64,000 nt of DNA from Bidens hawaiensis (Eukaryota > Streptophyta > Magnoliopsida > Asterales > Asteraceae), in assembly GCA_021521415.1 (NCBI GenBank), contig JAIQDT010000226.1:2148501-2212500 (forward strand), written 5' to 3'. Made by a program: the position numbers and the translations under genes. A model generated the notes under the pieces. It was not told the origin of the DNA. It searched no databases and saw only the letters and a program-made list of their open reading frames with translations. This document shows, in pieces, positions 10,011 to 63,955 of the stretch. How positions within the stretch are numbered: the first letter of the stretch is position 1; each line of letters opens with the position of its first letter.

Positions 10011-10105
10011 ACACAAACATACTAGTATAGGTTGTAGGGGTTTATATATAGGGTGTACCTGCGGCTAACCCACCACTCCTACAACTTATACTACTATGTT
10101 TGGGT
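10011..10105 (-). repeat. Constant-core hairpin A in Z LTR
   Basis: The arms 10011-10038 and 10078-10105 are reverse complements at 25 of 28 positions. They enclose a core beginning GGGTTTATATATAGGG and ending GCGGCTAACCCACC. The same core with different but self-complementary arms occurs three times at 12553-12961 and four times in Z2. The identical LTR copy is at 18444-18538. Confidence 0.85.
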
Positions 10106-10510
10106 ATAATTCCCAGTTTTTAAAATGGTTTGTAAGAAAAGATCTCTTGGTTTTCCCACAGAGGTTTTTGTAGTAAGTCAAACATGAAATGTTCTCCTGG
10201 GCTCTCAACGGGCTTATCAATCTCCCATTAGAGTCGTATGTGATAAGATTACTCAAAGATTTGCGGTCTCCCAACGGTACATGTAGCACATAACAGTTAA
10301 GCATAAACAAGGACATATAGATTTGAGCATGCTAAGTTTACTAGATAAACCAACACCAAAATCCCATTGTTTACTAGTATCCAAGATGATGGTGAACAAA
10401 TGATGATGATGATGAATGATGATGAAACCCAATGATCACACAAGACTTGATTGAACTCACGCAAGACTTAAACCAAGACTACCTCGTTCTTGCCATCCAG
10501 GACTCAGCTA

Positions 10511-10703
10511 GGTTCTACCGAGAGTAGGATAGACACCCCAAAGAATCCTGGGTTCCCTTGGTCCCTACCGAGAATAGTATAGGTCCTCAAGAGTTATGGA
10601 TTTCACCGAGACTAGTATGAAATCCCATGAGTTACGAGTGCCACCGAGAATAGAATGCCACTCATGGTCGTGAGTTCTACCGAGAGTAGAATAGACTCTC
10701 GCG
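10511..10703 (-). repeat. Five hairpins with constant CCGAGARTAG loop in Z LTR
   Basis: Units at about 10511-10536, 10557-10591, 10596-10628, 10636-10663 and 10669-10703 share the loop ACCGAGARTAG. Each is bounded by different, largely complementary arms, for example ATGGATTTCA with TGAAATCCCAT (one bulge). The duplicate is in the right LTR at 18944-19136. Confidence 0.7.
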
Positions 10704-11281
10704 TCCAATTCAACTCATGATGTTTTGATCTCTAGATTTCCATGCTGACACAATGACTATGATGATATGAATTTGATTCCCGTTCCCATGATGTCAATGT
10801 TCACAGAATTTCCCATACTCATTGATTTCCAATGTTCTTAGATCTCCATGAGTTAATGGGTTTTCCCCATGTTCATAGATTTCCAAAGTTTATAGATTAC
10901 CAAGAAGCTCGTGGATTTCCGCACGTGTGTAGAAATCCAAATGTTTATAGTTTAAAGAATGTTTGCATAAATGATTTTATCCAAACGTGTAAAGTTACCA
11001 TGTTTAATCCAAATGTTTATAGTTTAAAGAATGTTTGCATAAATGATTTTATCCAAACGTGTAAAGTTACCATGTTTCCACCCCATAGTTTTGAAAAGCT
11101 TAAATAGGGGCTATGAACTCACCTTGATCTTGGGTTAGGATGGTGCTACAATAGATCTCCTTAGCCTAGAGTTGGACATATATATAAGGTTAACAACGTG
11201 CTATAAGTCTAAGAAAACGAGCTTACGTGACCTCGAGCAAAAACTGGGTTTTAAAGACGAAAACAGCTTGGTTCTGGCTTG

Positions 11282-11630
11282 ATTCGATCGAATAGGAACA
11301 CGTTCGATCGAATAGGAACACGTTCGATCGAATAGGAACTTGTTCGATCGAATAGACACACATTCGATCGAATAGACACACATTCGATCGAATAGACACA
11401 CATTCGATCGAACTAGAAACACATTTGGTCGAACCAGTTGGGAAAACTCGTTCGGTCGAACATGGAACTTGTTCGATCGAATAGACACTCGTTCGATCGA
11501 ATACGAAACTCATTCGGTCGAATGAGTTGGAGACCATTCGGTTGCTTTCCTATTCGGTCGACCGGACTGGTTCGATCGACTGGTTCGATCGAATGGGCTG
11601 ATTCGATCGACTGATTCGATCGAATGAGTC
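11282..11630 (-). repeat. TTCGATCGAA palindrome array in Z LTR
   Basis: Tandem units of about 20 bp, TTCGATCGAATAGACACACA and close variants (GTTCGATCGAATAGGAACAC), become more irregular toward 11630. Each contains the 10-bp perfect palindrome TTCGATCGAA. The array is repeated in the right LTR (19715-20063) and in Z2 (61858-62195) with a different unit count. Confidence 0.85.
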
Positions 11631-12283
11631 TGATTCGACTCCTTCAAGCTGGGCGACGGAGAAACCTACGGGTTTTTCAGATTTTCCAGATTTTTGACCC
11701 AAAATCGAAGTTTTTGACATGGAAATGCTCGGGATTGAAGGGACTATCGATTCCCAGTGATTTTAAACACAAAAGCCTGCATTTTGACACCAAAACAAGA
11801 CGGTTTTTGACCCGAAAACTCAAGAAACGAAAATGGGTGTTTTTGCTCGATTTGAGGCCGAAAATGGTTATGAAAATGGATGATTTTCAAGAAGATCTTA
11901 CCAAGAACAACAACAAACAGATTTGTGGACTCGGATTTGAAGTTTGAAGACTTTCTCTCTCTAGTTTCTCTCTCTAGAATGAGAGTGTTTGGGTGGGAAG
12001 TGTTGGTGGAAATGAAAGAGATGGTGTAAGAATACTTGATTTTCCGCTTAAATACTCGGGTGACTCGGGTTCGGGTTTAGGCTACCGACGGGTCAAGACT
12101 AGTCGAGTTCATAAGTTTTTAAACAAACTAAAACCTTTTCAGCAAAACTTTTATAAAACCATTTTCCGAATAATTATTTGAAATCTTTTTAAATAAGAAT
12201 ATTAAATTTTTCGAAAGCATAAAAATTAATATTTTTCAGGCGTAAATGTCGTTTTATAAAATAAACATTTTAAATGATAAAAG

Positions 12284-12322
<39 letters not shown>

Positions 12323-12423
12323 CCAATGATATGGGTTCCGAACTTATCGTCCAGAATCCCAAAGTCTATAGTTTCCGATGATTTCACGATCCTAGTTTAC
12401 CAATCGAATTTCAGGGCGTTACA

Positions 12424-13407
12424 TCCTCCCCAATTTAGAGGAATTTCGTCCCGAAATTTAGAATTTAGTATAGTTGATGCAATGATGTTTTAGATTAAAT
12501 GATCCCATGATGACCACTATGCGCCACTACCCCTAATATTCGTCTTGGATACCACCCAAATCAAGTTGAAGGGGTTTATATATAGGGTGTACCAGCGGCT
12601 AACCCACCACTCCCTCAACTCCACTTGGGTGTTTCTTTCGACTCCTATTAGTTCAATGACACACAGGACGACACACTATTTTCCACTACAAGGCATCACC
12701 TTCAAGCTTTACATCAGACATATTCATTTCGGATTGAAGGGGTTTATATATAGGGTGTACCAGCGGCTAACCCACCACTCCTTCAATCTCCAATGAATAA
12801 TTCCCTCAATAACTCTTGAATTTAACGCCTCACAGCTGCCACGCTAACTATGAGTCCCTAATTCCAAGTCTCGCTTCAGACATAATCAACTTGTGCCGAA
12901 GGGGTTTATATATAGGGTGTACCAGCGGCTAACCCACCACTCCTTCAACATTCATTGATTAATTCCCTACACGAAGCTTGAGTTCACGACTCATAGTTAC
13001 ACAATAGCATATTGTTTATACACGTATACACCTGTGAACTTGATGTTATTATATTCCGGACTATAATTACGAGTTCACCTTGTATCAATGTATAAACTCC
13101 ATTGTGTGCGGCTAGAAAAATCGACACGACACCACACACACACACACAACCATGCTTCATGAATGTTAGAATGATGACAAATTTTGGCTCAATGATACAT
13201 AGTTTACCCCAATGTTTACATGATTAAGTATGCACAACTTGTGTTTTCCAGCACGAGTCATGGGTAGCCAAACTTGGTGTTATGCAAATAAGAGAATATT
13301 TATAAGCAAATAGGAACAACATGATACTTCATTGATTGATATTGGTCCCTGATTACATGATTACGATTACATAGACTCCAAGATTTCTAGAATTACAAAG
13401 ATGATGA
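12424..13407 (-). repeat. Z 3' untranslated region with purine tract and three core hairpins
   Basis: Directly beside the LTR the element strand reads TTGGGGAGGA (12424-12433), a polypurine tract that primes plus-strand synthesis. Between it and the pol stop lie hairpins B (12553-12631), C (12721-12799) and D (12883-12961), each with the same core as hairpin A but different complementary arms. A short CA repeat lies at 13134-13148. No ORF is supported. Confidence 0.8.
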
Positions 13408-16400
13408 CTATGCGAACAGATGAGGGTATTTCTCCTTCATCTTATCCTCTCGTTCCCATGTGAGCTCGGGTCCACGATGGTTGTTCCAACGTACCTTGAC
13501 TATAGGTATCCGGCTTCGCTTAGTCTTTTTGACTTCTCGATCTAGGATCTCGACAGGTTCCTCAACAAAGTATAGTTTGTCGTCGATGTGAACCGTGTCG
13601 ATCGGGATTTGAGCGGTCTCGTCAACGAGGCACTTTTTGAGTTGCGACACATGAAAAACGTTGTGAACGCGGCTGAGTTCTGGAGGCAATTCCAAGCGAT
13701 AGGCTACAGGTCCGACCTTTTCGATGATCTTGAAAGGTCCTACGTACCTTGGAGCAAACTTTCCCTTTTTCCCGAAGCGAACAATGCCCTTCCAGGGGGA
13801 AACTTTGAGCATTACGTGATCGCCTATTTGGAACTCCAGAGGTTTGCGGCGTTTGTCAGCGTAATACTTGTGTCGACAGCGGGCGTCCTTAAGTCTTTGC
13901 TGAATGATGGCGATACTGTCAGTGGTTTCCTGTATCAGTTCCGGGCCGAGTATTTGAGAATCTCCGGTCTCGGACCAACACAGTGGAGAACGACATTTCC
14001 TGCCATAGAGTGCTTCGAATGGCGCGCATTTGATGGTAGCATGATAGCTGTTATTGTATGAGAACTCTGCAAGAGGAAGGTGAGTCTCCCAGCTACTACC
14101 AAATTCAAGGATACAGGCTCTGAGCATATCCTCCAGGGTTTGTATGGTCCTTTCGCTCTGTCCGTCCGTTTCAGGATGATAGGCAGAGCTAAGTTTCACA
14201 CTTGTCCCAAAGGCTTTCTGAAATGACTTCCAGAACCTTGACGCAAAAGAGGGGTCACGGTCAGACGTGATGCCCTTAGGCACACCGTGACGGGTTACGA
14301 TCTCACGAATGTAAATCCGCGCCAGCTTCTCCGTAGTGTAGTCCTCGCGGACAGGGAGAAAGTGGGCAGACTTGGTCAAGTAATCCACGATAACCCAAAT
14401 CGTGTCATAACCGCTGGGTGTCCGCGGGAGTTTGGTAATGAAGTCCATAGCGACTTCGTCCCACTTCCACTGCGGTATGATCGGTTTTTGTAACAGGCCA
14501 GATGGTCTCTGATGTTCAGTCTTGATCCGCGAGCATGTTAGACACTTACCGACGTATAAAGCTATGTCTTTCTTCATACCCGGCCACCAGAAATGAGACT
14601 TGAGATTCTGATACATTTTATCACTGCCCGGGTGAATAGAGTATCTGGATTTGTGCGCTTCGTTCAGGATAAGTTCTCGAAGTGGTTCAGAGTTTGGAAT
14701 CCACATGCGATTTAAGTAGTAAAGTATACCATCAGACTTGGTTTCAAACTTCCGTTCGGCACCGCAAGATAGCATATTTTTGAGATCACCACCAGCAATC
14801 GCTTGCTTTTGAGCTTCAAGAACCAAGGAGGGAAGATTGGACTGAATACGGATCGCATGCAACTGGGTCCTTTCCTTGCGACTTAACGCGTCAGCCACTA
14901 CGTTAGCCTTTCCAGGGTGGTAGCGGATTTCGCAGTCATAGTCACTTAGGAGTTCAACCCATCGACGTTGTCGCATATTTAGCTCCCTTTGGTTGAGGAT
15001 GTGTTGTAGGCTCTTGTGGTCGGTGAAGATGACACATTTCGTACCGTATAGGTAGTGTCTCCATATTTTTAAGGCAAAGACCACAGCACCCAATTCCAAG
15101 TCGTGAGTGACATAATTCCTCTCATGACTCTTGAGTTGACGCGAGGCGTAAGCGACGACCTTACCGCGTTGCATTAAGACGCAGCCTAGACCTTGGCTCG
15201 AGGCGTCGCAATAAACAACAAAATCATCGTTACCCTCAGGAAGCGACAGGATTGGTGCATGGCAGAGTTTATGTTTCAATGTTTGGAAAGCCTCTTCTTG
15301 CTCTTGGTTCCAAATGAATGGTTCCCCTTTTTGAGTTAACATTGTGAGGGGCAACGCGATCTTTGAAAAGTTCGAGATGAATCGACGGTAGTACCCAGCC
15401 AAACCAAGAAATGAACGAATTTCGGTTGGCGTTGTAGGCGCTCCCCATTTTTTTATGGCTTCAATCTTGGCAGGGTCGACATGAATGCCTTCCTTGTTAA
15501 TGATGTGACCTAAGAATTGAACTTCCCTTAGCCAGAATTCGCATTTGGAGAATTTGGCGTAGAGTTGCTCTTTCCTCAGCAGATCCAAGGTAAGCCTGAG
15601 ATGAAGCTCATGGTCGGCTTTAGAGCGGGAATAAACGAGAATATCGTCAATGAAGACGATAACAAACTGGTCCAGGTATGGACGACAAATGCGATTCATG
15701 AGATCCATGAACACTGCAGGGGCATTCGTCAAACCAAAAGGCATGACTAGGAACTCGTAGTGTCCATATCGAGTTCTGAAAGCGGTTTTCGCGATGTCGT
15801 CCTCCATGACACGCACTTGGTGATAACCTGAGCGTAGGTCGATCTTGGAAAAGTAGGTGGCTCCTTGCAGCTGGTCGAAAAGATCGTCAATCCTCGGTAA
15901 TGGATACCGATTCTTGACTGTGAGTTTGTTAAGCTCACGATAGTCTATGCACATCCGGAAAGATCCGTCCTTCTTCTTGACGAAGAGGACTGGAGCTCCC
16001 CATGGAGACGAACTAGGGCGAATAAAACCCTTGTCCAGTAGTTCCTGCAGCTGGCTCGATAATTCCTGCATTTCAGACGGAGCCAAACGATACGGAGATT
16101 TTGCCACGGGGGTTGCACCGGGAACTAACTCGATGTGGAATTTGACTTGTCGGCTAGGAGGAAGTCCGGGTAAGTCTTTAGGAAAAACGTCTGGAAATTC
16201 ACGCACGACGGGGACATCGGAGAGCTTCTTCCCCAAAGATTTCTTGATGGAGACATGAGCTAGGAAGGCGAGACACTTCTTTCGAAGGCATCGCCGAGCT
16301 TTAAAGCAGGAGATTAATTTCAGACATCTGCCTGATCTTTCTCCTTGAATAATTATGGACTCGCCAGAAGAACAAGGAACGCGAATGAGCTTCTCAGCAC

Positions 16401-17877
16401 ACACCACTTCCGCGTGGTTGATGGACAACCAATCCATCCCAACAATTACATCGAAACTTCCTAAATGCATAGGGATGAGGTCAATGTTAAGAGACGTCCG
16501 ATCAAACGTAAGCGTGCAATTGCGAACGATTTTGTTCACTAGGGTAGACTCTCCGTTTGCCATTTCGACAGAGAAAGCGGGGTCTAAGACAGAGGTTCCT
16601 AGATTAAGCAATGGGACCAACTCGCTAGAAATAAAACTCCTATCTGCACCCGTGTCAAATAGAATAGAAACCCAGAGATTGTTAAGGATGAACGTACCAG
16701 TAATGACGTCAGGATTTTGGCGAGCTTCAGCAGTGCCAATAGTAAAGGCTCGGCCTCGGGCCGGAGGAAGATTTGCAAGACGAGGACACCTGCTCCTGAA
16801 ATGGTCCATGGCTCCACACTCGAAACAGCTTCGAGAGTTGCTGGGTTGGGAACTGCTGCTCTGTATCGCCAGTTGATTACCTTGAAATCTGCAGCGTTCC
16901 GCTAGGTGCCCCAAACGTCCACAGTTCGTGCATTTCCAGCACGGGGTTCCGGCAGGATGATGAAATTGGCAAGTGCCGCACTTGGGGTGAACCCCAGTGT
17001 ACTCCCTCTTTGGCCTTCCTGAAGGGGTGGGAGCAGGAGCGACAGAGCTGATTGGGGTTGCGGGAGTAACCATCGCGTAACTGCTAGCCTTACGCTTTTT
17101 GATGCGGTTGATCTTTTTGGATGAGCCTTCAGCGGCCTTGCCCGTACCTTTGGCTAGGACCCCAGTCTTAACCTGGTCCTGGGTCAGTCGGGCAGCTAGT
17201 TCAATGGCCGCTTGTAGGGTTGATGGGTCAGCCCCGATAACGATTCCACGGACAGTGTCAGGTAGGCCATTGATGTAAAGCTCAATAGCCCGGGAGGGAG
17301 GGGTGACCAAGTGTGGTACGAGAAGGGAGAGCTCGTGAAAACGCTCCGTGTACCCTTGGTGATCGGCGCCCTTCATTTTGTGTACCCAAAACTCAGCTTC
17401 AAGTTTCTGCACCTCACTGCGAGGTACGAACTCGCGGGTAGCCAATGCTACAAATTCCGACCAGGTCATGGCCAAGGCAGCCTCACGCCCACGGGTTCTT
17501 ATCTCGTTGTTCCACCAGGTCAGCGCGCGTTTAGACAACATGCTTGCCGCGTGCGTGACTTTCAGTGTCTCAGGGCACGAGCTAATAACAAAGGCTGCCT
17601 CCATCTTTTCGATCCACTGGAGGAGACCAACGGCGCCTTCTGTGCCGCTGAAGCTGGTGGGTTTGGTAACCATGAAATCCTTGTATGGCTTATTAGCTGG
17701 TTCATTTGCGTTCTGAGCTGGAATTTGGTTGGCCCCAGAGGTTCCTTCTTGCCTCAGCCCTTGGCTGATGGTTGTTACCATGCCTGGTAACACAGCCGCG
17801 ATCTGCTGGGCTATAAGGTTGGCTAATTCAGCGGAGTCCATGGAAGCGGGTGCACGTCTGGGAGGCATTCTTCGCAA
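13408..17877 (-). CDS. gag-pol: Z Gag-Pol polyprotein (Ty3/Gypsy, intact)
   Basis: An uninterrupted 1489-residue polyprotein beginning [10 protein letters not shown]. Order, with approximate residues: Gag capsid domain 65-250 with a WW motif; two CCHC knuckles [14 protein letters not shown] (318-331) and [14 protein letters not shown] (352-365); aspartic protease with FDTGADRSF near 408; RT about 590-790 with catalytic FIDD near 743; RNase H from about 875 ([10 protein letters not shown]); integrase with an HHCC finger (CLTC near 1145) and DDE motifs ([15 protein letters not shown], then TDGQSERT); and a C-terminal chromodomain-like segment ending [18 protein letters not shown] before integrase marks Ty3/Gypsy, and the tail fits Tekay/Del chromoviruses, whose chromodomain guides insertion. 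The first ATG is 250 bases after the primer site. All motifs are present, so it may be autonomous. Confidence 0.97.
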
Positions 17878-18110
17878 AACGAAAAACGAGCGTTAAATAG
17901 AATCAATGACACGCCAAAGATTATGAATAGAGGACATAGATTATACCAAGAACACATAATGACATGACTCAAGAGATTAACAGTTAATATGCAACACATA
18001 AGCACGTAGCACGTATATAAGTGTAGACATGTGATTGTGATGCATGAGCTATCTAGAGTCAAGGATCCTAGGTTATAGTCTAGGTCGGTTTCCTAATTCC
18101 CTATAACCAT

Positions 18111-18124
18111 TGGCTCTGATACCA
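18111..18124 (-). promoter_or_regulatory. Z primer-binding site
   Basis: On the element strand TGGTATCAGAGCCA, complementary to initiator methionine tRNA, three bases after the end of the 5' LTR at 18128. It fixes the minus orientation. The interval 17878-18110 is the short leader. Confidence 0.95.
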
Positions 18125-18127
18125 ATC

Positions 18128-20716
18128 TGTCACACCCCGATCGTGATGGCGGAAAAATCGAGGTGCGGCGACTAAGTCGTGATTGTTGAGCACAATAGTA
18201 TAAAAGTCTAAATGCATAAACATAACCAAAATGTCGAATATTACATCAACCAGGTAACATGAAACAAATTGTTTTAATACAAAATATCAAGTTTTCAACA
18301 ACTCCTAGTCTAGCCTTCATCTTTCTAAGGCCTCTAAACTTGCTAGGGATTTCTTGCTGCATTATTTCCTGAAAACATGTAACAAACTGTCAACTACATA
18401 AAGTAGATGAGTGAATTCATAGGTTTAAAGAAAAGAGTTTTATACACAAACATACTAGTATAGGTTGTAGGGGTTTATATATAGGGTGTACCTGCGGCTA
18501 ACCCACCACTCCTACAACTTATACTACTATGTTTGGGTATAATTCCCAGTTTTTAAAATGGTTTGTAAGAAAAGATCTCTTGGTTTTCCCACAGAGGTTT
18601 TTGTAGTAAGTCAAACATGAAATGTTCTCCTGGGCTCTCAACGGGCTTATCAATCTCCCATTAGAGTCGTATGTGATAAGATTACTCAAAGATTTGCGGT
18701 CTCCCAACGGTACATGTAGCACATAACAGTTAAGCATAAACAAGGACATATAGATTTGAGCATGCTAAGTTTACTAGATAAACCAACACCAAAATCCCAT
18801 TGTTTACTAGTATCCAAGATGATGGTGAACAAATGATGATGATGATGAATGATGATGAAACCCAATGATCACACAAGACTTGATTGAACTCACGCAAGAC
18901 TTAAACCAAGACTACCTCGTTCTTGCCATCCAGGACTCAGCTAGGTTCTACCGAGAGTAGGATAGACACCCCAAAGAATCCTGGGTTCCCTTGGTCCCTA
19001 CCGAGAATAGTATAGGTCCTCAAGAGTTATGGATTTCACCGAGACTAGTATGAAATCCCATGAGTTACGAGTGCCACCGAGAATAGAATGCCACTCATGG
19101 TCGTGAGTTCTACCGAGAGTAGAATAGACTCTCGCGTCCAATTCAACTCATGATGTTTTGATCTCTAGATTTCCATGCTGACACAATGACTATGATGATA
19201 TGAATTTGATTCCCGTTCCCATGATGTCAATGTTCACAGAATTTCCCATACTCATTGATTTCCAATGTTCTTAGATCTCCATGAGTTAATGGGTTTTCCC
19301 CATGTTCATAGATTTCCAAAGTTTATAGATTACCAAGAAGCTCGTGGATTTCCGCACGTGTGTAGAAATCCAAATGTTTATAGTTTAAAGAATGTTTGCA
19401 TAAATGATTTTATCCAAACGTGTAAAGTTACCATGTTTAATCCAAATGTTTATAGTTTAAAGAATGTTTGCATAAATGATTTTATCCAAACGTGTAAAGT
19501 TACCATGTTTCCACCCCATAGTTTTGAAAAGCTTAAATAGGGGCTATGAACTCACCTTGATCTTGGGTTAGGATGGTGCTACAATAGATCTCCTTAGCCT
19601 AGAGTTGGACATATATATAAGGTTAACAACGTGCTATAAGTCTAAGAAAACGAGCTTACGTGACCTCGAGCAAAAACTGGGTTTTAAAGACGAAAACAGC
19701 TTGGTTCTGGCTTGATTCGATCGAATAGGAACACGTTCGATCGAATAGGAACACGTTCGATCGAATAGGAACTTGTTCGATCGAATAGACACACATTCGA
19801 TCGAATAGACACACATTCGATCGAATAGACACACATTCGATCGAACTAGAAACACATTTGGTCGAACCAGTTGGGAAAACTCGTTCGGTCGAACATGGAA
19901 CTTGTTCGATCGAATAGACACTCGTTCGATCGAATACGAAACTCATTCGGTCGAATGAGTTGGAGACCATTCGGTTGCTTTCCTATTCGGTCGACCGGAC
20001 TGGTTCGATCGACTGGTTCGATCGAATGGGCTGATTCGATCGACTGATTCGATCGAATGAGTCTGATTCGACTCCTTCAAGCTGGGCGACGGAGAAACCT
20101 ACGGGTTTTTCAGATTTTCCAGATTTTTGACCCAAAATCGAAGTTTTTGACATGGAAATGCTCGGGATTGAAGGGACTATCGATTCCCAGTGATTTTAAA
20201 CACAAAAGCCTGCATTTTGACACCAAAACAAGACGGTTTTTGACCCGAAAACTCAAGAAACGAAAATGGGTGTTTTTGCTCGATTTGAGGCCGAAAATGG
20301 TTATGAAAATGGATGATTTTCAAGAAGATCTTACCAAGAACAACAACAAACAGATTTGTGGACTCGGATTTGAAGTTTGAAGACTTTCTCTCTCTAGTTT
20401 CTCTCTCTAGAATGAGAGTGTTTGGGTGGGAAGTGTTGGTGGAAATGAAAGAGATGGTGTAAGAATACTTGATTTTCCGCTTAAATACTCGGGTGACTCG
20501 GGTTCGGGTTTAGGCTACCGACGGGTCAAGACTAGTCGAGTTCATAAGTTTTTAAACAAACTAAAACCTTTTCAGCAAAACTTTTATAAAACCATTTTCC
20601 GAATAATTATTTGAAATCTTTTTAAATAAGAATATTAAATTTTTCGAAAGCATAAAAATTAATATTTTTCAGGCGTAAATGTCGTTTTATAAAATAAACA
20701 TTTTAAATGATAAAAG

Positions 20717-20750
<34 letters not shown>

Positions 20751-20851
20751 CCAATGATATGGGTTCCGAACTTATCGTCCAGAATCCCAAAGTCTATAGT
20801 TTCCGATGATTTCACGATCCTAGTTTACCAATCGAATTTCAGGGCGTTACA
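18128..20851 (-). repeat. Z 5' LTR (right copy, 2724 bp)
   Basis: It matches 9695-12423 base for base wherever I compared them; the only difference I found is a shorter poly-T run (about 20721-20750). As the 5' LTR it should hold the promoter. The internal repeats are the same as in the left copy, displaced by 8433 bp. Confidence 0.95.
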
Positions 20852-20856
20852 AAGAA

Positions 20857-21395
20857 TATTCAGATATTTGAAGGAAAGATCAGACTTAGGGATTTGGTAT
20901 CCAAAGAACCAATCCTTTGATCTGATTGCATACACAGACAGTGATTATGATGGATGCAATATGAGTAGAAAGTCAACATCAGGGGGATGCCAGTTTTTAG
21001 GTGAAAGGCTAGTGTCATGGCAATGCAAGAAACAGACAACAATGTCAATCTCCACTGCAGAAGCTGAATATGTTGCTGCATCTGCCTGTTGTGCACAAGT
21101 TCTCTGGATTCAGAATCAGATGCTGGACTATGGTTTGAACTTTCTAAACACCCCTATTCTGATTGATAATACAGCTGCATATTTTACTGTTAAGAATCCT
21201 GTGCAACATTCTAAGACTAAGCATATTGAAATCAGACATCACTTCATCAGAGATTGTAGTGAAAAGGGTTCGATTGAAATGCAAAGAGTTGATACAAGTG
21301 ATAATCTGGCTGACCTATTCACCAAACCACTTGATAGAACCAGGTTCAACTTTCTGTTGAAAGCCCTGGGGATGATCAACTCTGATGAAATCTGA
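20857..21395 (+). pseudogene. pol: Y pol, 3' part: end of RT and RNase H
   Basis: This continues the Y frame broken by Z. Joining 9694 to 20857 (one AAGAA removed) gives an unbroken frame. It encodes the Copia RNase H domain with AYTDSDYDG near 20932, WQCKKQ, STAEAEY (near 21053), a DNTAA motif, the ADLFTKPL block near 21310, and a TGA stop at 21393-21395. This segment has no internal stop. RNase H removes the RNA template during reverse transcription. Confidence 0.93.
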
Positions 21396-24650: not shown

Positions 24651-24759
24651 ATTTTAAATGAGATTAAATGTTTTTAATATATCAAGTGGATAATGTTACT
24701 GGTTGACAGCTAGTAATTCACAAGAAGACAAAAAGCATTTAAAACCCACTTTCAAAATG

Positions 24760-24767
24760 TATAAAAG
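24760..24767 (+). promoter_or_regulatory. TATA box of Y accessory gene
   Basis: TATAAAAG in ATGTATAAAAGAGGG, followed by a pyrimidine-rich start-site-like stretch (CCCTCTATCTCTCTCC). The counterpart in W is TATAAGAG on the minus strand (48489-48482) with a similar downstream pyrimidine tract. It suggests an independent internal promoter. Confidence 0.65.
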
Positions 24768-45630: not shown

Positions 45631-45638
45631 TCATCCTC

Positions 45639-52099: not shown

Positions 52100-52866
52100 A
52101 TCTCCCACTTGCACGAGATACATAGAAAATTAATGCAAGTGGTGAATACCGCCTAACAACAGTTCACCACCCCTAATGTGTTTGACGAAGTGCCATTCAA
52201 TAACATCATCCCTTCAAGCCCCTTACTTGATATGATTTAGGTGAATCTATCATTATATCCCTTTGTTACTAGATGTCATGTTGGATCTAAGAGACATAGG
52301 TGATCATTCTCTTTACAATTCAACTTTATCAGGCCTTAGACATCTAAACTCTCAACACATAAGAGGAACAAATTCCGTCTTGACTGTATACGCCTCTCAC
52401 TATCACTTTATACCCCACCCGAGCTCATCCTTATGTACCATCTTTTACGAATAGCGAAGGGGAGAGTCAAAGTGTAATACTCGGTGAAAATCAAGACCCA
52501 ATATACATCTCAGGTCTTAGGATAATATGAAATTCTCCTTTACTCAAGGTTACTAATGATCAAGTCAATCGACTCCATGTAGTAATATTGAGAGCGGGTC
52601 AGTCCAATATTTGTATCCCACAAATATCTATGAACTTTGGCAGCAATCCTATGCTCCATATTCATTCCTTATGAATATCTACCAATCCTAGTTCATAATA
52701 GTCTTGCTTCATATTTGTTTCCACAAATGTGATCGACTACGGACTTTTAGAATAAGATAACTTATTCATGGATTAAACATGCAAAATTTAGAATTTAACT
52801 CAAGATTCCATAATCATATAAAAGAGTTAAATTACAAAAGTCTTTTAAACTTTAATACAAAATAGA
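52100..52866 (-). other. U 3' untranslated region
   Basis: Between the pol stop and the LTR. It begins with the purine tract (52100-52110); otherwise no ORF, repeat or structure I can support. Confidence 0.7.
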
Positions 52867-55800
52867 TCAAATCCAATTACTAGAATATCGAAGTCCTAAG
52901 CCACTCGTATGACGCTCATGTTTCGGTCTTTCTAGGAGCTTCGTGAATGGATCCGCAAGATTTTGATCAGTTCCAACTTTGCGAATACATATCTTTCCTT
53001 TTTCAACTTCATCCCTTATGTAGTTGAATCTCCGCTCTATGTGCCTTGTCTTTTGGTGCGAACGAGGTTCCTTGATTTGAGCAATCGCACCCTCGTTGTC
53101 ACAAAAGATTTCTAGGGGGTCTTGAATGGAAGAGACCACCCCTAGATCAGTAATGAATTTCTTCAACCATGCAGCTTCCTGAGCTGCTAATGAAGCGGCG
53201 ATGTATTCTGATTCTGTAGTGGACAATGCTACCACTTCCTGTTTTGAGCTCTTCCAAGAGACAGCTCCTCCATTAAGAGTGAACACATACCCAGACTGTG
53301 ATCGAGAATCATCTCGATCAGTTTGGAAGCTCGCATCCGTGTAACCTTTTATAGCGAGTTCCTCCTCACCAGATCCATATATCAGAAACATATCCTTAGT
53401 TCTCCTAAGGTATTTCAATATGCTCTTAACAGCCATCCAATGACTGTTTCCTGGATTCTGTTGGTATCTGCTTGTCATGCTCAAAGCGCATGACACATCC
53501 GGTCTAGTACATATCATCGCATACATGATGGATCCTATAGCAGAAGCATATGGGATTTGTTTCATCATCTCTTGCTCACCCTTTGAGCTTGGACATTGAT
53601 CTGAACTCAATATGGTCCCTCTTTGAATAGGTACAAAACCTTTCTTGGAGTTTTCCATCTTGAACCTTTTCAAGATCTTATCAATGTATGTACTTTGGTT
53701 CAAACCTATCAAGCGCCTTGACCTATCCCTATAGATCTTTATTCCCAAAATATAGGCAGCTTCACCAAGATCCTTGATGGAAAATCTACTTCCAAGCCAA
53801 GCCTTAACGCTTTCCATGGTTGGAATGTCATTTCCAAATAGTAGAATGTCATCGACATACAATACTAAGAAGGTAATTATACTCCCACTAGCCTTTTTAT
53901 ACACACAAGCCTCATCAGCGTTCTTGATGAATCCAAAATTTTTGATTTCTTCATCAAAACGATGATTCCAAGTTCTAGATGCTTGTTTCAATCCATAGAT
54001 TGATTTCTTTAACTTGCATACTTTATTAGGATGTTTTGGATCGACAAAACCTTCAGGCTGAACCATATAGACATCTTCCTCAAGATATCCATTTAGGAAA
54101 GCGGTCTTGACATCCATTTGCCAAATTTCATAATCATAATGAGCAGCTATGGCAAATAATATCCTAATAGACTTTAGCATTGCCACAGGCGAAAAAGTTT
54201 CATCATAATCAACCCCTTGAGTTTGAGTGAAACCTTTAGCTACAAGTCTTGCTTTATAAGTATCCAAGTTTCCATGCATATCAGTTTTTCTTTTGAAAAC
54301 CCACTTACTTCCAACAGTTTTGGTGTTAAGTGGTGGTTCAACCAATTCCCAAACTTGGTTGTCATACATGGATTGCATATCAACGTTCATGGCTTCAAGC
54401 CATTTGTCACAATCATTCTTGGACATTGCATCACGGTATGTGGTTGGTTCATCCGAATCTACCACGTAGCAACCTTCTACAAAAAATCCATATCTTTCGG
54501 GTGGATTGCTAACTCTACCAGATCTGCGAACGTTTTGTGTGTTTTGATCAACCACTTGATCACTTTCAACAACCTCTTGTTGAGTGCTAGTATCAACCAA
54601 TTGTGTATCATCTTGTGATTCTTGATCCTCATCAAATTTCACTGTTCTACTATTAGTTCCTTCCTTAAGGAACTTAGTTTCCAAGAACTTACCCTTTCGA
54701 GCAATAATAACATTTTGCTCACTAGGATCGTAAAAGTAATATCCTATATCATCTTTAGGGTAACCAATAAAGATACACTTAGTGGATCGGACTTCTAATT
54801 TGTTTGGGGTGTCTAGCTTTACATAAGTTTCACAACCCCAAACTTTTAAGAATGATAGCGATGGAGCCTTTCCATGCCATATTTCAAAAGGTGTCTTCTC
54901 CACTTTCTTGGTTGGAGCCATATTCAATATGCGAACAGCGGAAAGTAAAGCATAGCCCCAAAATGATAGAGGTAAAGTGCTTCTAGCCATCATCGATCGA
55001 ACCATATCTAATAGGGTACGATTTCTCCTTTCAGACACACCATTATGTTGTGGTGTTCCAGGTGGAGTAAGTTGTGAAATAATTCCACAACTCTTAAGAT
55101 GATCTTGAAAAACACCACTTAGGTATTCACCTCCTCTATCACTACGAAGTACTTTGATTGTGGTTTTGAGTTGCCTTTCTACTTCAGTTTTGAAGTCTTT
55201 GAACATTTCAAAAGCTTCATCTTTGTGTTTCAATAAGTACACATAACCATATCGACTATAATCGTCAATAAAGGTAATGAAGTATCTTTCACCATTCCTA
55301 GTCATTGGTCTAAAAGGACCACATACATCCGAATGTATGATACCCAATAATTCTTTTGACCTTTCAAAAGTTTTATTAAAGGGTTGCTTTGTCATTTTGC
55401 CTTGTAAACAAGATTCACATACATCAAATGAATCAAACTCATTGGTTTCTAGAATACCACTCTTGCGAAGAGTTTGCATGCGATTCTTGCTTATATGTCC
55501 AAGGCGACAATGCCAAAGATAGGAATCACCCAAGTCCTTCTTGAGTTTCTTGGTGTTGACATTATACATTGAACTACTATGTGACATACCACTTTGATCT
55601 ATTTCATATATACCATTCATGGGTATAGCTTTAAAATAAAATATGCCATTCATCAAAACATGAATATCATAATCCACAAATTTAAAATCAAAGCCACATT
55701 GTTTTAAAAGGGACACGGAAATAATGTTTCTCCTTAACTTAGGAGCATACAAGACATTTTTCAAAATTACTTCCAAACCACTTGGAAGTTTTAACAAGTA

Positions 55801-56877
55801 GTCTCCTTGAGCTTGGACTTCAACTCTTGCTCCATTGCCCATAAAGAGACTAATGTCCCCTTTGTTGAGTTGTTTATTTCTTTTGAACCCCTGCAACAAA
55901 TTGCAAATGTGAGTTCCACATCCGGTATCAAGTACCCATGTATTTGAAGAAATAACATTTAGTTCAACATATATAGTAAAGATAATACCTGAGGTATGCC
56001 CCGCATCCCTCTTATCTTTTAATGCATTGAGATAGGTCGGACAATTCCTTTTCCAATGACCTATCTCTCCACACTCAAAGCATGGATCTTGCGCCGCAAC
56101 CTTTTGCTTCTTTTCCTTCGGTTTGATGGGCGTGATGGCTTTCCTCTTTCCCTTTCCTTGGACGTGGCCCTTGCCCTTAGCAACACTTGCTTTGGGTTTG
56201 GAGTTATGTCCCCTTTTGCCTTCATTGATTGTTAGAACGGGTAAAACCCTTTTACCCATTCCCGCTTCGGCCGTTCTTAGCATTGCGTGAAGCTCACCAA
56301 TGCTTTTGTCCCATCCATTCATGTTATAGTTCATGACAAAGGTTTCAAACCTTTTGGTCAAAGAGTTGAGGATCAAATCCGTAGCCAACTCATTAGAGAC
56401 GGGACAATTCAACCTACGAAGCTTTTCAATGTAGCTTTTCATCTTTAGGACATAAGATGAGACGCTTTGGGTTTCCTCCATACGACATGCATGAAACGCT
56501 CGAACCGTTTCGAAACGTTCCGCTCTAGCTTGTTGAAGGAACATTTCCTTCAATTGAGTTATCATGTCGTATGCCCCATGATGCTCGAAATCCTTTTGGA
56601 TTTCGGGAATCATAGTCCCTAACATGAGGCAAGAGGCTTGCACCGAATCTTTGGTGTACTTGACCCAATCGTTATAAGCCTCCTCATCTTCCACGTTAGG
56701 CTCGTCGGGAATGGGATCGTCTAAGACATATGATATCTCTTCTTGCTTGAGAACTATTCTCAAGTTGCGATACCAATCCATAAAGTTATTATGGTTTAGA
56801 CGATCCTTTTCAAGGATGGTTCTTAAGGATAGGTTACGGGTGTTATGGGTAGAGGTGTTTGCATTGTTAGCGGCCAT
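52867..56877 (-). CDS. gag-pol: U Gag-Pol polyprotein (Copia, intact)
   Basis: An uninterrupted 1336-residue polyprotein starting MAANNANTSTHN. Approximate order: UBN2-like Gag domain (15-210); a Lys-rich linker; a single CCHC knuckle CFECGEIGHWKRNC (266-279); aspartic protease with WVLDTGCGTHIC (near 315); integrase with HCRLGH and CESCLQGK finger residues (about 455-500), then DVCGPF, SDRGGEY and GVSERRNRT of the DDE core; RT from about 830 with MDVKTAFLNG and catalytic YVDDILLFG; RNase H with GYTDASFQTD, STTESEY and ADPFTKLL. This order is that of Ty1/Copia. Gag and Pol share one frame, unlike Y. All catalytic residues I can check are present. The ATG at 56877 follows a leader of about 1.6 kb. 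Confidence 0.97.
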   Translation of the reverse strand: MAANNANTSTHNTRNLSLRTILEKDRLNHNNFMDWYRNLRIVLKQEEISYVLDDPIPDEPNVEDEEAYNDWVKYTKDSVQASCLMLGTMIPEIQKDFEHHGAYDMITQLKEMFLQQARAERFETVRAFHACRMEETQSVSSYVLKMKSYIEKLRRLNCPVSNELATDLILNSLTKRFETFVMNYNMNGWDKSIGELHAMLRTAEAGMGKRVLPVLTINEGKRGHNSKPKASVAKGKGHVQGKGKRKAITPIKPKEKKQKVAAQDPCFECGEIGHWKRNCPTYLNALKDKRDAGHTSGIIFTIYVELNVISSNTWVLDTGCGTHICNLLQGFKRNKQLNKGDISLFMGNGARVEVQAQGDYLLKLPSGLEVILKNVLYAPKLRRNIISVSLLKQCGFDFKFVDYDIHVLMNGIFYFKAIPMNGIYEIDQSGMSHSSSMYNVNTKKLKKDLGDSYLWHCRLGHISKNRMQTLRKSGILETNEFDSFDVCESCLQGKMTKQPFNKTFERSKELLGIIHSDVCGPFRPMTRNGERYFITFIDDYSRYGYVYLLKHKDEAFEMFKDFKTEVERQLKTTIKVLRSDRGGEYLSGVFQDHLKSCGIISQLTPPGTPQHNGVSERRNRTLLDMVRSMMARSTLPLSFWGYALLSAVRILNMAPTKKVEKTPFEIWHGKAPSLSFLKVWGCETYVKLDTPNKLEVRSTKCIFIGYPKDDIGYYFYDPSEQNVIIARKGKFLETKFLKEGTNSRTVKFDEDQESQDDTQLVDTSTQQEVVESDQVVDQNTQNVRRSGRVSNPPERYGFFVEGCYVVDSDEPTTYRDAMSKNDCDKWLEAMNVDMQSMYDNQVWELVEPPLNTKTVGSKWVFKRKTDMHGNLDTYKARLVAKGFTQTQGVDYDETFSPVAMLKSIRILFAIAAHYDYEIWQMDVKTAFLNGYLEEDVYMVQPEGFVDPKHPNKVCKLKKSIYGLKQASRTWNHRFDEEIKNFGFIKNADEACVYKKASGSIITFLVLYVDDILLFGNDIPTMESVKAWLGSRFSIKDLGEAAYILGIKIYRDRSRRLIGLNQSTYIDKILKRFKMENSKKGFVPIQRGTILSSDQCPSSKGEQEMMKQIPYASAIGSIMYAMICTRPDVSCALSMTSRYQQNPGNSHWMAVKSILKYLRRTKDMFLIYGSGEEELAIKGYTDASFQTDRDDSRSQSGYVFTLNGGAVSWKSSKQEVVALSTTESEYIAASLAAQEAAWLKKFITDLGVVSSIQDPLEIFCDNEGAIAQIKEPRSHQKTRHIERRFNYIRDEVEKGKICIRKVGTDQNLADPFTKLLERPKHERHTSGLGLRYSSNWI

Positions 56878-58515
56878 CTACAAAATTTAACAAAGTTCTA
56901 TTTTAGTATTATAAACAATTTAATTATTAATACCCTTTTATTCCAAATTTTAAAATAATAATTAAATTCTAGAATCCAACGATAAATCAAATTTCGGTTA
57001 GGTGACCTTTATCCCGTTATTTGATTTAACAAGGTAGTCAATCTTGACAATTGCAACCCTTTGCAACTTCTAGAGGTATGGGACCATTCGAAATCCTTTT
57101 TTTCGTATTGGCATGTTTATCCCATCAACACCATTGGACCCCATGCTTAGGTGACCTTTATCACATGGTTTCCAATTCAAGTCGTCCTACTTGTATAAAC
57201 ATGTAAGATTAACATACAAGTGGTTAGGTGACCTTTATCCCACAAATATGTTAATATTACCCTAAGTATATTAGTTTGCTCAAAATGGTTAGGTGACCTT
57301 TATCCCATTTAAAGTTTCCTAATACGTTAAGTGTCTTACAAAAGGATGGTGTTAGACTTGTTTCCTTGGTAATTAAGAAAAAGGGATTTTTAAGTTTTCC
57401 AATATTCTAGTTTGAAAAACATAATGCCATATCCTAACATGCATTTAGTAATATGGCGATTTTGAAAACCAATTTTCAAGGTTCAAGTTATAATAAAACC
57501 AATTTTATTATATGTGAGTGATCGCTTAGTTTTAATAAACCCATTTAATTAAACTAATTGACGCGATATTACCAAATATATATTAGAACCCGTTTTATGC
57601 TTGTTGTCGTTCCTATGTGACGGTTTGGATATCCTAATATCTATCAACCACACATTACAATAAGTAAAACAAACAACCAAGCATACACATGCAAAATATA
57701 GTCATAACCGAGAACCACTAAGTTTGACCATACTTGTTAGCCGAAACAAGTATAGGTCATAGGTCACACCTAAGGGACAAAACATGACACAAGGATGGAA
57801 TGTTGACTCCCACTTGATCTTGCATCCAAATGCTTCAAGTATCCTCTCCAAGTTGTTGTGTTCTTGTTGGGCTTGTTAATGGGCTCCAAACTTCCAAAAG
57901 TCTTCTTGGGCCCAAGAGTGAAATTTATGGGCCTAATGGGCTTGAATCCCATGATGGGCCGGTGAGGCCCAATAAGCCCAAAATTTTCGGCCCAAGGCCC
58001 AAATCCACCAAAACTTGCATCTTCAATTTTTTTTACAAAATGTATCCTAATACATATTTTTCTAAAAAAGGAAAATGCAATTAATCTATTTATTACAAAC
58101 CAATTTATGAATAAATAAATTACACAAGCCTAAGATTATGAATTATTACAACCATATTGAATAATAAACATAATCAACATACACAAACAACACATCCAAG
58201 GTCTAGGTTTCGGTTATGACACATCCAAACATACCAAATGTTCTAAGCATGCAACCTAAGCAACCAATGCCCAAAACCCCAAAAAAAAAAAAACCGGCCC
58301 CCCCCCCCCCCAAGAGGCTACGGCCCAAAATTTTTTATATATATTTTTTTTTATTTTCAACATCCAAATGTTAATAATGGTTTCCTAAGATCTTTGCATG
58401 CATGTCAAGATCTTACAAAACCATGGGGTAAAATCCACCAAAATTTCGGACCCCTTTTTCACCCATGAAAAACCCGAAATCTATGAACATGCAAGGAGCA
58501 TAAGTCCTTGTAACC
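56878..58515 (-). other. U leader (5' untranslated) with four core hairpins
   Basis: An unusually long leader between primer site and ATG. Four units (56986-57025, 57133-57176, 57212-57251, 57279-57314) share the core TTAGGTGACCTTTATC, flanked by different complementary arms. At 57870-57990 there are many GGGCCT/AGCCCA words, also found in the V leader (60140-60255). Low-complexity A and C runs lie at 58280-58311. Confidence 0.75.
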
Positions 58516-58529
58516 GGCTCTTGATGCCA
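58516..58529 (-). promoter_or_regulatory. U primer-binding site
   Basis: On the element strand TGGCATCAAGAGCC, one base after the LTR. It is a variant of the initiator-Met site (TGGTATCAGAGCC) with one extra A, and V has exactly the same variant at 59618-59631. Confidence 0.75.
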
Positions 58530-58530
58530 A

Positions 58531-59426
58531 TGTTGGGTTTTATACAAGTTTATCAAAGTCAAGTTAACCATATTTAACTAGAAAACGCAACGGAAGCTTA
58601 GATTTTAAATCTAGTTATGAACATACCATTATGTTAATAATCAAAACCCAATGAACAAGGATCAAAATTACAAGAACAATATGCTCACAAAATGTAAATG
58701 TACCTTCTTCTACCTTTAGAAGAATAAGTAAGATATTGAAGATGATGGTGGATGAATGGCAAGCCTCCAAAGAAGAAGACCTCAAGATAGTGATACCCCA
58801 AGCTATTTGTGACAACACCAACTTGATTGCTAGGATTTATGAACACTTAAACAAGCTCACAAGCTCTCCCAAAACTCCTTGGTTTGGCCGTGAACTTGAG
58901 AGAGAGTTAGAGGAGTTTCTTGATTCAAAATTTTGAATAATAATCTACACACTCAAGACCCCAAAATGCATGTAATCTTATTGGGGATGTAAAAGGTTCC
59001 CATCACATGGAGACAAGGCATAAAAGGACAAAAACTTCCACCCACATGGGGTGGCCGTTTTTTTGATATTATTATTATTTTTTTTTTTTTTTTTTTTTGC
59101 TTTTGTTTTAACCATTAAAACATCTCCAATTTATTTTATAAAACTCATTTCATAAAATGCACATACATTTATATAATTATTTAACCAATTAAATAATTAA
59201 TTTATATAAACAAATTATCCACATAATTTATTTAAATCCTCAAGTGTGTTTGTTTAGAAAACCAATTTTCTAAACAAGTAGTGTTCGGTATTCGTTTAAA
59301 TGATCAAATCACTAAAAGAATACATTTGGTGTCGTCTAGCTTGTTATTGGGTATGACCCGACTTGGATCAAACACAGTTAGCCACATTAGTATAAGTATG
59401 TGTCTCGGGCATACGTAATTCCAACA
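58531..59426 (-). repeat. U 5' LTR (right copy)
   Basis: 896 bp, nearly identical to 51202-52099. As the 5' LTR it should provide the promoter reading leftward. Confidence 0.95.
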
Positions 59427-59431
59427 GTATT

Positions 59432-59616
59432 ACATAAACCCCCTATGGTTGATAGTTTTGGTATGCATGTAATTCGTATATGGATCCGGGGCTTGGGTTT
59501 TACATATAAAACGGGTTTTATATCAATCAATATAACAAGATTTAAAACTTTTAATCCGTTGCGTTTTTCATATAAATAGGTTTATATGGCTTTGATAATC
59601 TTGTTAAAACCGAACA
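59432..59616 (+). repeat. V LTR, part 2
   Basis: Completes the V LTR after U and ends CCGAACA at 59616, one base before the primer site. Total V LTR length is about 944 bp, similar to U. Confidence 0.75.
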
Positions 59617-59617
59617 A

Positions 59618-60425: not shown

Positions 60426-60747
60426 TGTCACACCCCGGTCGTAATGGCGGAAAACCGAGGCGTGGCGACTAGGTCGTGATTGATTGAGCACAATAGTATA
60501 AAAGTCTAAATGCATAAACATAACCAAACTGTCAAATATTACATCATCCAGGTAACATGAAACAAATTGTTTTAATACAAAATATCAAGTTTCCAAACAA
60601 CTCCTAGCCTAGCCTTCATCTCTCTAAGGCCTCTATCAGCTATTAGCTACTTCCTGCTTCATTTCCTGAAAACATGTAATAAAACGTCAACTACAAAAAG
60701 TAGATGAGTGAATTCATAGGTTAACTAATACTGTAGTGATAAGCCCT

Positions 60748-60841
60748 ACACAAGCATACTAGGCTAAGTTGTAGGGGTTTATATATAGGGTGTACCATCG
60801 GCTAACCCACCACTCCTACAACTTATCCTACTATGCTTGGT
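60748..60841 (-). repeat. Constant-core hairpin E in Z2 LTR
   Basis: The positional equivalent of hairpin A. Relative to A, two arm positions changed in both arms with pairing kept: AAACATA/TATGTTT became AAGCATA/TATGCTT, and TAGTATA/TATACTA became TAGGCTA/TATCCTA (first T-A to G-C). Confidence 0.8.
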
Positions 60842-61061
60842 ATGCTTATCATCTCAACTAAATCTGCAAGAGTTTCGTATAAAGATTCCAATTATTGTTT
60901 CCATGCATGCAGGAGGAACGGTATCAAGGATATATGTATAAGATACCCAAGAATCATATGTAACCATGCCATGATGAAAAATGATAATGATGCATAATGA
61001 TCACACAAGACCTGACATCGACCCCACACAAGACCACACTATGCTACTTGATTTCCTTGAT

Positions 61062-61299
61062 GGTAACCCAAATCGATCACTTTGGGTACCATGAGAGAAT
61101 TCTAAAGCGTACTTTAGTATCTCTTGGATTCCTAATCGATCACTTAGGAGATCCTTCGGATCCTTAATCGAACACTTAAGAGATCCTTCGGATTCTTAAT
61201 CGAACACTTAAGAACCCCATAGATCACGTGTATTCTAAATCGATCACTTTAGAATCCCACATCTAGTGACGGCCTGTCTACCAATCGACCACTTGGAGA
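61062..61299 (-). repeat. Six stem-loops with constant TCGAtCAC loop in Z2 LTR
   Basis: Units at 61062-61090, 61126-61154, 61158-61186, 61193-61214, 61232-61255 and 61277-61299. Loops are TCGATCAC, TCGAACAC or TCGACCAC. Inner stems are CCCAAA/TTTGGG, TCCTAA/TTAGGA, CTTAA/TTAAG, TTCTTAA/TTAAGAA, ATTCTAAA/TTTAGAAT and CCAA/TTGG. The first three extend outward with one bulge. Confidence 0.85.
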
Positions 61300-61857
61300 T
61301 CAAACCTATGCACTATTGTGACCTATATTGCCACTGTTCACACGATCACGAGACTGACCAATGAATAATGTGTTTTCATGATAAAGTATAACGGGTACAT
61401 GACTTTGATTTCCAAACGTCCAATGTTCCCTAAACGCTGAGTGATTCCCATATTTACTCCTGAATATTTGATTATGCATACCCAACTTCCGAGAAAGTTA
61501 AGGTACGCGTAACCTGCCATGATTACTTGTTTTCCCAATGTTCATTGTTTGCAAAAGATTTGTCAAGTGTTTATGATAAGTAATGTTTGAATAAATGTGT
61601 TTTGTCAAAACGTGTACATTTACCATGTTTTCACCCCCAATGATTTGAAAGGCTTTAAAAGAAAAATGGGGGCTATGAACTCACCTTGTTGACTAGGTGT
61701 GGTTGCTAGGGCGGTCGGGTGCTGTCAAACGTCGATCCTCTAAGTCTAGACAAGGACATAATAAGTTAACAACACAGTTTAAGTCTAAGAGTGTAAGCCT
61801 TACACGATCTCGAGCAAAAACTAGGTTTTAAAGACGAAACAGCTTGGTTCTGACCTG

Positions 61858-62195
61858 ATTCGATCGAATAGGAACACATTCGATCGAATCGAAACACATT
61901 CGATCGAATAGACACACATTCGATCGAATAGACACACATTCGATCGAATAGAAACACATTCGATCGAATAGACACACATTCGATCGAATAGAAACACATT
62001 CGATCGAATAGACAGACGTTCGATCGAATACGAAGCTCATTCGGTCGAATGAGTTGGAGACCATTCGGTTGCTTTCCTATTCGGTCGACTGGACTGGTTC
62101 GATCGACACATTCGATCGAATGAACTGATTCGATCGACTGGTTCGATCGAATGAACTGATTCGATCGACTGGTTCGATCGAATGAGTCTGATTCG
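61858..62195 (-). repeat. TTCGATCGAA palindrome array in Z2 LTR
   Basis: About nine regular 20-bp units TTCGATCGAATAGACACACA and variants, then irregular TTCGATCGA pairs. Unit composition differs from Z, so arrays turn over within elements. Confidence 0.85.
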
Positions 62196-62740
62196 ACTCC
62201 TTCAAGCTGGGCGACGGAGATACCCACGGGTTTTCCAGATTTTCCAGATTTTTGACCCAAAATCGAAGTTTTTGACATGGAAATGCTCGGGATTGAAAGG
62301 GGTATCGATTCCTAGTACTTTTAAACACAAAAGCTTGCATTTTGACACCAAAAATGACGGTTTTTGACCAAGAACACACTTGACACAAAAGTCGGAGTTT
62401 TTGCTCGATTCGGGGCGGGTTTTGGTTGTAAAAACGTATGATTTTCAAGAAGATCTTACCGACAACAACGATAAACAGATTGGTGGACTCGAATCTTAGA
62501 TTGGATGACTTTCTCTCACTACTCTCTCTCTAGAAGTGGGAGTGTTTGGGTGGGAAGTGTTGGTGGAAATGAAAGAGATGGTGTAAGAATACTTGATTTT
62601 CCGCTTAAATACTCGGGTGACTCGGGTTCGGGTTTAGGCTACCGACGGGTCAAGACTAGTCGAGTTCATAAGTTTTTAAACAAACTAAAACTTTTTCAGC
62701 AAAACTTTTATAAACCATTTTCCGAATAATTATTTAAAAT

Positions 62741-62773
<33 letters not shown>

Positions 62774-62972
62774 AAGAACATTTTATTTTTCAAAAGCATA
62801 AAAATTAATATTTTCCAGGCGTAAATGTCGTTTTATAAAATAAACATTTCAAATGATAAAAGCAGATTTCTCCAATGATATGGGTTCCGAACTTATCGTC
62901 CAGAACCCCAAAGTGTATAGTTTCCGATGATTCCTTGATTTTTGTCTACCAGTCAAATTCCAGGGCGTTACA

Positions 62973-63955
62973 TCCTCCCCAACTTAGGGGAATTTCGTCC
63001 CGAAATTTAGCTTTTTAGTATACTTGATGCATCGATGATTAAGATTACATGATCCCATGATGACCACTATGCGCCACCACTTCTAATATTCGTCTCAGGC
63101 ACCACCCAAATCAAGCCGAAGGGGCTTATATATAGGGTGTACCAGCGGCTAACCCACCACTCCTTCAACCTTACTTGGGTGTTTCCTTCGACTCCTATTA
63201 GATCGATGACACACAGGACGACACACTATTTTCCACTACGAGGCATCATCCTCAAGCTTTACATCAGACATATTCATTTCGGATTGAAGGGGTTTATATA
63301 TAGGGTGTACCAGCGGCTAACCCACCACTCCTTCAATCTTCCGCGAATATTACCCTCGGTAATTCTTGAATTCAATGTCTCACAGCTGCCACGCTAACTA
63401 TAAGTCCCTAATTCCAGGTTTCGCTTCAGACATATTCAACTCGTGCCGAAGAGGTTTATATATAGGGTGTACCAGCGGCTAACCCACCACTTCTTCAACC
63501 TTTGTCGAATATTTCTCTACACGAACCTTGAGTTCACGACTTCTAGTTACACAATAGCATATTGCTTATACACGTATACACCTGTGACCTTGATGTAATT
63601 ATATTCCGGACTATAATTACGAGCTCACCTTGTATCAATGTATAAGCTCTATTGTGTGCGGCTAGAAAATTTGACACGACACCACACACATACACACAAC
63701 CATGCTCCATGAATGTAAGAATGAATGACAAATTTTTGGCTTAAATAATGTATAAATTTCCCCAAAATTCATATGATTGAGTAGATATGACTTGTGCTCC
63801 CAGCATGAGCCCTGAGTAGCCAAATTTGTGGATGCAAATAAAAGAATACTTATAAGCATAATAAGGCAACACGATATTCATTGAATAACACAATTATTTG
63901 ATACATGCTGCAAATGTTATATTGACTTCTAGACAATAGATTACAAGAATAGAGA
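62973..63955 (-). repeat. Z2 3' untranslated region with three core hairpins
   Basis: A purine tract lies beside the LTR (TTGGGGAGGA on the element strand). Hairpins F (63103-63181), G (63271-63351) and H (63432-63513) are the equivalents of B, C and D. In H, a G-to-A change in the left arm (GAAGAGG) is matched by a C-to-T change in the right arm (CACTTCTTC). No ORF. Confidence 0.8.

Follow-up and report, generated by a model that had tools for sequence, protein, structure and literature searches.

Repeated hairpins with a near-constant core in Ty3/gypsy elements of Bidens hawaiensis

In a 64,000-nucleotide stretch of the Bidens hawaiensis genome (contig JAIQDT010000226.1, positions 2,148,501 to 2,212,500; hereafter the window) two Gypsy elements, Z and Z2, carry the same 39-nt core at several places, each time between flanks that change from site to site and are reverse complementary to one another. 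What would keep the core constant, and the arms around it paired, at so many places? Comparison of the copies establishes, at the level of sequence, the stem, its multiplicity and its upkeep by compensatory change. A repeated hairpin in which the loop is nearly constant, while changes on one side of the stem are matched on the other, is indicative of selection on an RNA structure.

Hairpin sites in Z and Z2

All of the hairpins are on the minus strand of the window, which is the sense strand of the elements and the strand that the conserved structure fits. Hairpin A (10011-10105), in the 3′ long terminal repeat (LTR) of Z, has 28-nt arms around the 39-nt core and is duplicated through the LTR at 18444-18538, in the 5′ LTR. 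Hairpins B (12553-12631, the closest to the purine tract), C (12721-12799) and D (12883-12961) are in the 3′ untranslated region (UTR), between the end of gag-pol (13408) and the 3′ LTR (12423), and add to the one copy per LTR. Z2 carries E (60748-60841), F (63103-63181), G (63271-63351), which is partly degraded with 15/20 pairs, and H (63432-63513). Per element, three of the four hairpin sites belong to the 3′ UTR. The core was found in all nine places in which the initial annotation had put it, and the Watson-Crick counts that it gave for the arms agree with ours (A 25/28, C 17/20, D 14/20, the last rising to 17/20 with G.U pairs). It was also right that the two flanks of a site are reverse complementary, but they are not wholly unrelated between sites, since the innermost bases are alike and the arms share 45-70% identity across ten pairs of sites, this being the strongest arm divergence seen. 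Two paired substitutions had been proposed between A and E, and both hold (one in the alignment, the other further out, by inspection), whereas D and H, for which one had been proposed, differ by two (columns 3 and 20).

The treatment of A and E as equivalent sites is perhaps not strictly correct. One relative, L076, carries three hairpins in its LTR. The flanks of A resemble those of the last of the three, while the longest match of E is to the first, and because of these matches to different hairpins it seems that arrays have been collapsed by recombination. The number of LTR hairpins varies between copies (one, two or three), with arrays apparently recombining at the hairpins.

A scan of the window for hairpins (20-nt arms, at least 17 matches, loops of 3-70) returned six, four of which are A, its LTR duplicate, C and E, and returned none in five block-shuffled windows. 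The other two strong hairpins, at 39590-39695 (loop 66) and 62102-62147 (loop 6), have 17/20 arm matches and show no likeness to the core by eye.

Covariation and fold across genomic copies

An exact 32-nt core pattern with 30 specified positions occurs at least 4957 times in the species' own assembly (3.47 Gb) and at least 6472 times with up to three mismatches, all such counts being lower bounds; the reversed control pattern gave none in this assembly. A 25-letter pattern excluding the A before GGG occurs at least 22 times, and a 32-letter pattern excluding one inner-helix C at least once, though no rate is drawn from these altered-core counts as no neutral comparison position was measured. 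The exact core was absent from the viral contig and genome contig collections. Four viral contig loci fitted a shorter core pattern; in a model scan two of them matched over 17 nt only (E 0.12) and the other two not at all, and they were taken as chance. In a search of viral contigs for loci related by gag-pol, three stretches fitted a pattern and none was confirmed. At G000:C1 220028-240326 the hairpins follow the order LTR type, 3′ UTR pair, LTR type, 3′ UTR pair, LTR type, in steps of about 8.3 kb, which suggests a tandem element whose three LTRs share two internal regions; one more LTR-type hairpin comes after it.

Hairpins collected from 94 loci (L005-L098, from 100 exact places) and from the window gave 49 distinct 79-mers, some of them shifted by indels. 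The first of two alignments (A3) has 27 rows, 25 of them distinct, with L021:1476-1555 omitted for a one-base insertion. The second (A4) has 31 rows chosen by hand from the 49 distinct 79-mers or their in-register forms, near-duplicates and several indel copies being omitted, including two of the four hairpins of L092; it retains L083:2091-2170, in which an inserted C leaves the row partly out of register and lowers its count. Covariation was measured against shuffled rows. In the 31 rows 18 of the 22 outer-helix pairs covary, and doubly changed cells number 111 against 39.0 on shuffling. Paired cells amount to 89.6%, compared with 78.3% for shuffled and 35-48% for slid arms, and the covariation score is 0.364 against 0.158. 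The number of pair types (42, against 39.9) was equally high in 122 of 500 shuffles. In the 25 distinct rows 15 of the 22 pairs covary, with 35 pair types, which is below the shuffle mean of 36.3. The arms of a hairpin pair with one another at 17.0 of 20 positions, while arms swapped between hairpins less than 65% alike pair at 12.5, with a maximum of 18. The inner helices are invariant save for one C-to-U change that preserves its pair. The covariation in other copies supports the reading of the initial annotation, which proposed a selected RNA or DNA stem or a mechanism that regenerates the arms. Arms in other copies that failed to complement one another had been named as evidence against it, and the new arms mostly pair, including those of the L092 lineage, in which the alignable part of the 3′ region shares about 72% identity with Z.

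In the proposed fold the core is closed by a long stem of about 20 bp (P1), which most 3′ UTR sites interrupt by a 3x3 internal loop. In sense RNA the 39 nt would then read as an A, GU (paired with AC), GGU, GGGU (with ACCC), a UA/AC 2x2 loop, GCC (with GGU), a variable triloop and an unpaired UAUAUAUAA, with the GU/AC step deviating in H. Relative to dinucleotide shuffles, the z-scores of sites A to H are -5.3, -4.3, -3.7, -3.2, -5.4, -4.2, -2.0 and -3.3 on the sense strand and -5.6, -2.4, -4.6, -1.7, -5.8, -1.1, -2.9 and -0.9 on the antisense strand; the sense energy is the better one in five of the eight sites and the worse one in A, C and G. When the 31 rows were folded individually P1 was predicted in 29 and the drawn core helices were the minimum in 27. 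In the other four (two each from L037 and L092) the core is predicted to form an alternative AGUGGU/GCCGCU hairpin or another fold. We rank this alternative hairpin second to the drawn core because, on inspection, the varying triloop letters of A and E would break it. Both the core fold and the sense strand as the acting strand appear to be supported, more weakly than the stem itself.

Identity across six 3′ UTRs is 0.96-1.00 in the core, 0.88-1.00 in the spacers, 0.77-1.00 in the left arms and 0.90-1.00 in the right arms, so that the core is preserved as sequence, whereas conservation in the left arms falls below that of the spacers and in the right arms is about level with it. As the unpaired UAUAUAUA is self-complementary, two RNAs could pair through it, a possibility weakened by the presence of UAUACAUA in its place in some lineages; dimer energies are of little help here because every long hairpin dimerises too. 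Hairpin A also contains CCGCAGGUACACC, which resembles what we take to be the complement of the 18S rRNA 3′ end. This likeness is probably due to chance, and owing to the variable triloop it is poorer at the other sites.

A proposed recognition hairpin and its rivals

A stem constrained mainly in its pairing, a near-constant core and the presence of four to five hairpins in each element agree with a recognition element repeated along the transcript. We consider it probable that every site acts in cis as a hairpin in the sense RNA of the element, with the core as the recognition site. P1, free in sequence but kept paired, would present the fixed 39-nt core, which may be bound by the element's Gag or by a host RNA-binding protein with several reads per RNA. 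The most likely role would be in marking unspliced genomic RNA for export or for packaging, between which we do not distinguish. That RNA is the bound form, like the binding partner and the step served, is something we infer.

The main rival is a cis-regulatory palindrome in DNA. The core would be a core promoter with the TATA box TATATATAA and a protein-binding sequence, the arms would form a cruciform or give protection, and the LTR and 3′ copies would tune transcription. In the core of A and E TATATATAA, which resembles a plant TATA box in the sense orientation, is one of three TATA-like motifs common to both LTRs. Were A a promoter, transcripts would begin in its right arm and contain the full A hairpin only at their 3′ end, with B-D unaffected. 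In favour of this rival, conservation rises from A and E to the LTR end, a conserved block with a hardly alignable stretch just upstream, as expected near a U3/R border. Counted as cells, P1 minus its central loop has 117 Watson-Crick, 13 G.U, 2 A.C and 4 other cells in 8 rows, and 360, 39, 8 and 18 respectively in 25 rows; as distinct column states the ratio of G.U to A.C is 7:2 in the 8 rows and 9:6 in the 25 rows. This excess of G.U over A.C on the sense strand favours RNA over DNA or the copying of one arm onto the other, clearly in cells and weakly in states. Palindromic LTR motifs are present in Sireviruses, as described in the available part of the source (PMC2829016). However, for a promoter it is odd that so many of the sites are in the 3′ UTR, there is no obvious need for arms of 20-28 bp that change sequence yet still pair, nor for a sense-strand G.U bias, and in some lineages the core has TATACATAA or TGTATATAA. 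On balance we regard a DNA palindrome as unlikely.

A self-contained activity of the RNA is also to be weighed. We would give a rather small chance to the core being a new RNA fold that acts by self-cleavage, by blocking exonuclease or by pairing genomic RNAs through UAUAUAUA. Such a fold might be a pseudoknot in which GGUG pairs with CACC and GGUU with AACC while UAUAUAUA crosses, and it would be present four to five times in each element and thousands of times in the genome. The narrower proposal that this pseudoknot self-cleaves or blocks an exonuclease, with P1 as a free clamp stem, seems improbable. Small ribozymes do have a near-invariant core and a freely varying closing stem, as here, and on inspection all eight window cores contain both pseudoknot strands, which also accommodate the A-to-G change in F and L018. 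Yet L092 cores (AC for UA, or a missing G) appear to break one of its helices, the nested fold accounts for the triloop variation without it, and self-cleavage at four or five places in every genomic RNA would be harmful to the element. Rfam 15 gave no match at the gathering cut-off, whether searched with the whole window at E up to 5 or with the B-D and E regions at E up to 10, and in these two regions no ribozyme or exonuclease-resistant family appeared even at E 10. Plant retrozymes, reportedly hammerheads in non-autonomous retrotransposons (PMC4918200), differ too, as no hammerhead was matched in either search and Z has its own gag-pol. The best weak matches in the B-D and E regions were microRNA (miRNA) families, at E 0.023 (site E, antisense) and 0.53 (B). 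Such sub-threshold matches, the 20-28 bp stems, right arms about as conserved as the spacers and, in the available part of one source, small RNAs drawn to palindromic parts of maize Sireviruses (PMC10760457) would suit miRNA-like precursors or mere targets of small interfering RNAs. Every miRNA match is far under its gathering score, however, and a small RNA gene should conserve an arm more than the loop; in the six 3′ UTRs conservation is highest in the core, without the more conserved mature arm of plant miRNA precursors, and the arms differ between sites, so we think this explanation very improbable. Equally little weight falls on an origin without selection, in which quasi-palindrome correction, by strand or template switching in reverse transcription or repair, copies arm onto arm. 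The faster change of left arms than of core and spacers and the apparent recombination of arrays at hairpins are in its favour. Arm copying should, however, yield perfect arms, while most 3′ UTR sites keep their mismatches at the same three central positions and G.U exceeds A.C; the two compensated pairs of D and H are far apart with uncompensated changes between them; and the constant core is left unexplained. A coding explanation, through an antisense open reading frame (ORF) of 114 aa spanning two sites, was rejected (14 candidates, none at E up to 10).

Host elements and known systems

Element Z (9695-20851, minus strand) has LTRs of 2729 and 2724 bp (3′ LTR 9695-12423; 5′ LTR 18128-20851) that are 99.8% identical, a readable purine tract, the target-site duplication AAGAA and the primer-site motif TGGTATCAGAGC, which we take to match tRNA-Met. 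Its one gag-pol ORF (13408-17877, 1489 aa) encodes Ty3/gypsy domains in the order protease, reverse transcriptase, RNase H, integrase (PR-RT-RH-IN) and is 60-65% identical across 96-100% to its ten best-ranked relatives; a putative C-terminal chromodomain matches PF00385 weakly (E 0.0013, 19 bits, under the 25.1 cut-off). The Z2 region covers 60426-64000, also on the minus strand, with the LTR start TGTAACG at 62972. Z is inserted in another repeat (8502-9694 and 20852-21305) related to stretches between 34105 and 38372. An apparently intact Ty1/copia element is found at 51202-59426, with LTRs (51202-52099 and 58531-59426) 99.7% identical and an ORF of 1336 aa. Beet Bongo elements, Tekay-clade chromoviruses of 8.4-11.6 kb, resemble Z in LTR length (about 2.6-3.0 kb where complete), 5-bp target duplication, tRNA-Met primer site (on our assignment for Z) and single gag-pol frame; unlike for Z, no hairpin family is mentioned in the available part of their description (PMC3605345).

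The sites have partial parallels in other retroelements. The constitutive transport element of simian retroviruses is located between the last gene and the 3′ LTR. Like it and the RNA transport elements, the hairpins would be a structured element of unspliced RNA, with B-D, in the sense RNA, downstream of gag-pol and ahead of the 3′ LTR. They differ in forming several separate hairpins, including one in the LTR, and in having a plant host, and no family of this kind is among the Rfam matches. In Mason-Pfizer monkey virus and SRV-1 that element is a long stem-loop with two internal loops that recruits NXF1, as given in the available text (PMC7551171). Sireviruses (Ty1/copia) share with Z the repeated non-coding palindromic structures of a plant LTR retrotransposon. 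As far as the accessible part of the source goes, their palindromic motifs, nearly all with a CGG-CCG core, are upstream of the LTR TATA box and in two elements also near the envelope-like gene, with a separate stem-loop at the polypurine tract (PMC2829016). Our hairpins, in contrast, have no CGG-CCG palindromic box and belong to Ty3/gypsy rather than copia elements, with a 39-nt core in the loop, varying arms and a purine tract that is not enclosed. Among the literature matches listed, mainly open-licence papers, none described covarying structured RNA elements of plant Ty3/gypsy retrotransposons that have a defined core, and the core letters occurred in no paper text. In a paper on new plant structured RNA classes (PMC12218528) the words retrotransposon, transposable, LTR, Asteraceae, sunflower and repetitive are all absent. 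The hairpins would belong to a known kind, the cis-acting structured elements of LTR retroelements, as a member unmatched in Rfam 15 and in the literature searched.

Elements of the plant Ty3/gypsy type make up a large share of big plant genomes, and to our knowledge the selection of their genomic RNA for export, packaging or translation is largely an open question. A repeated hairpin with a fixed core would provide a bait that makes this selection testable, by pull-down of its partner and by swaps of stem and core.

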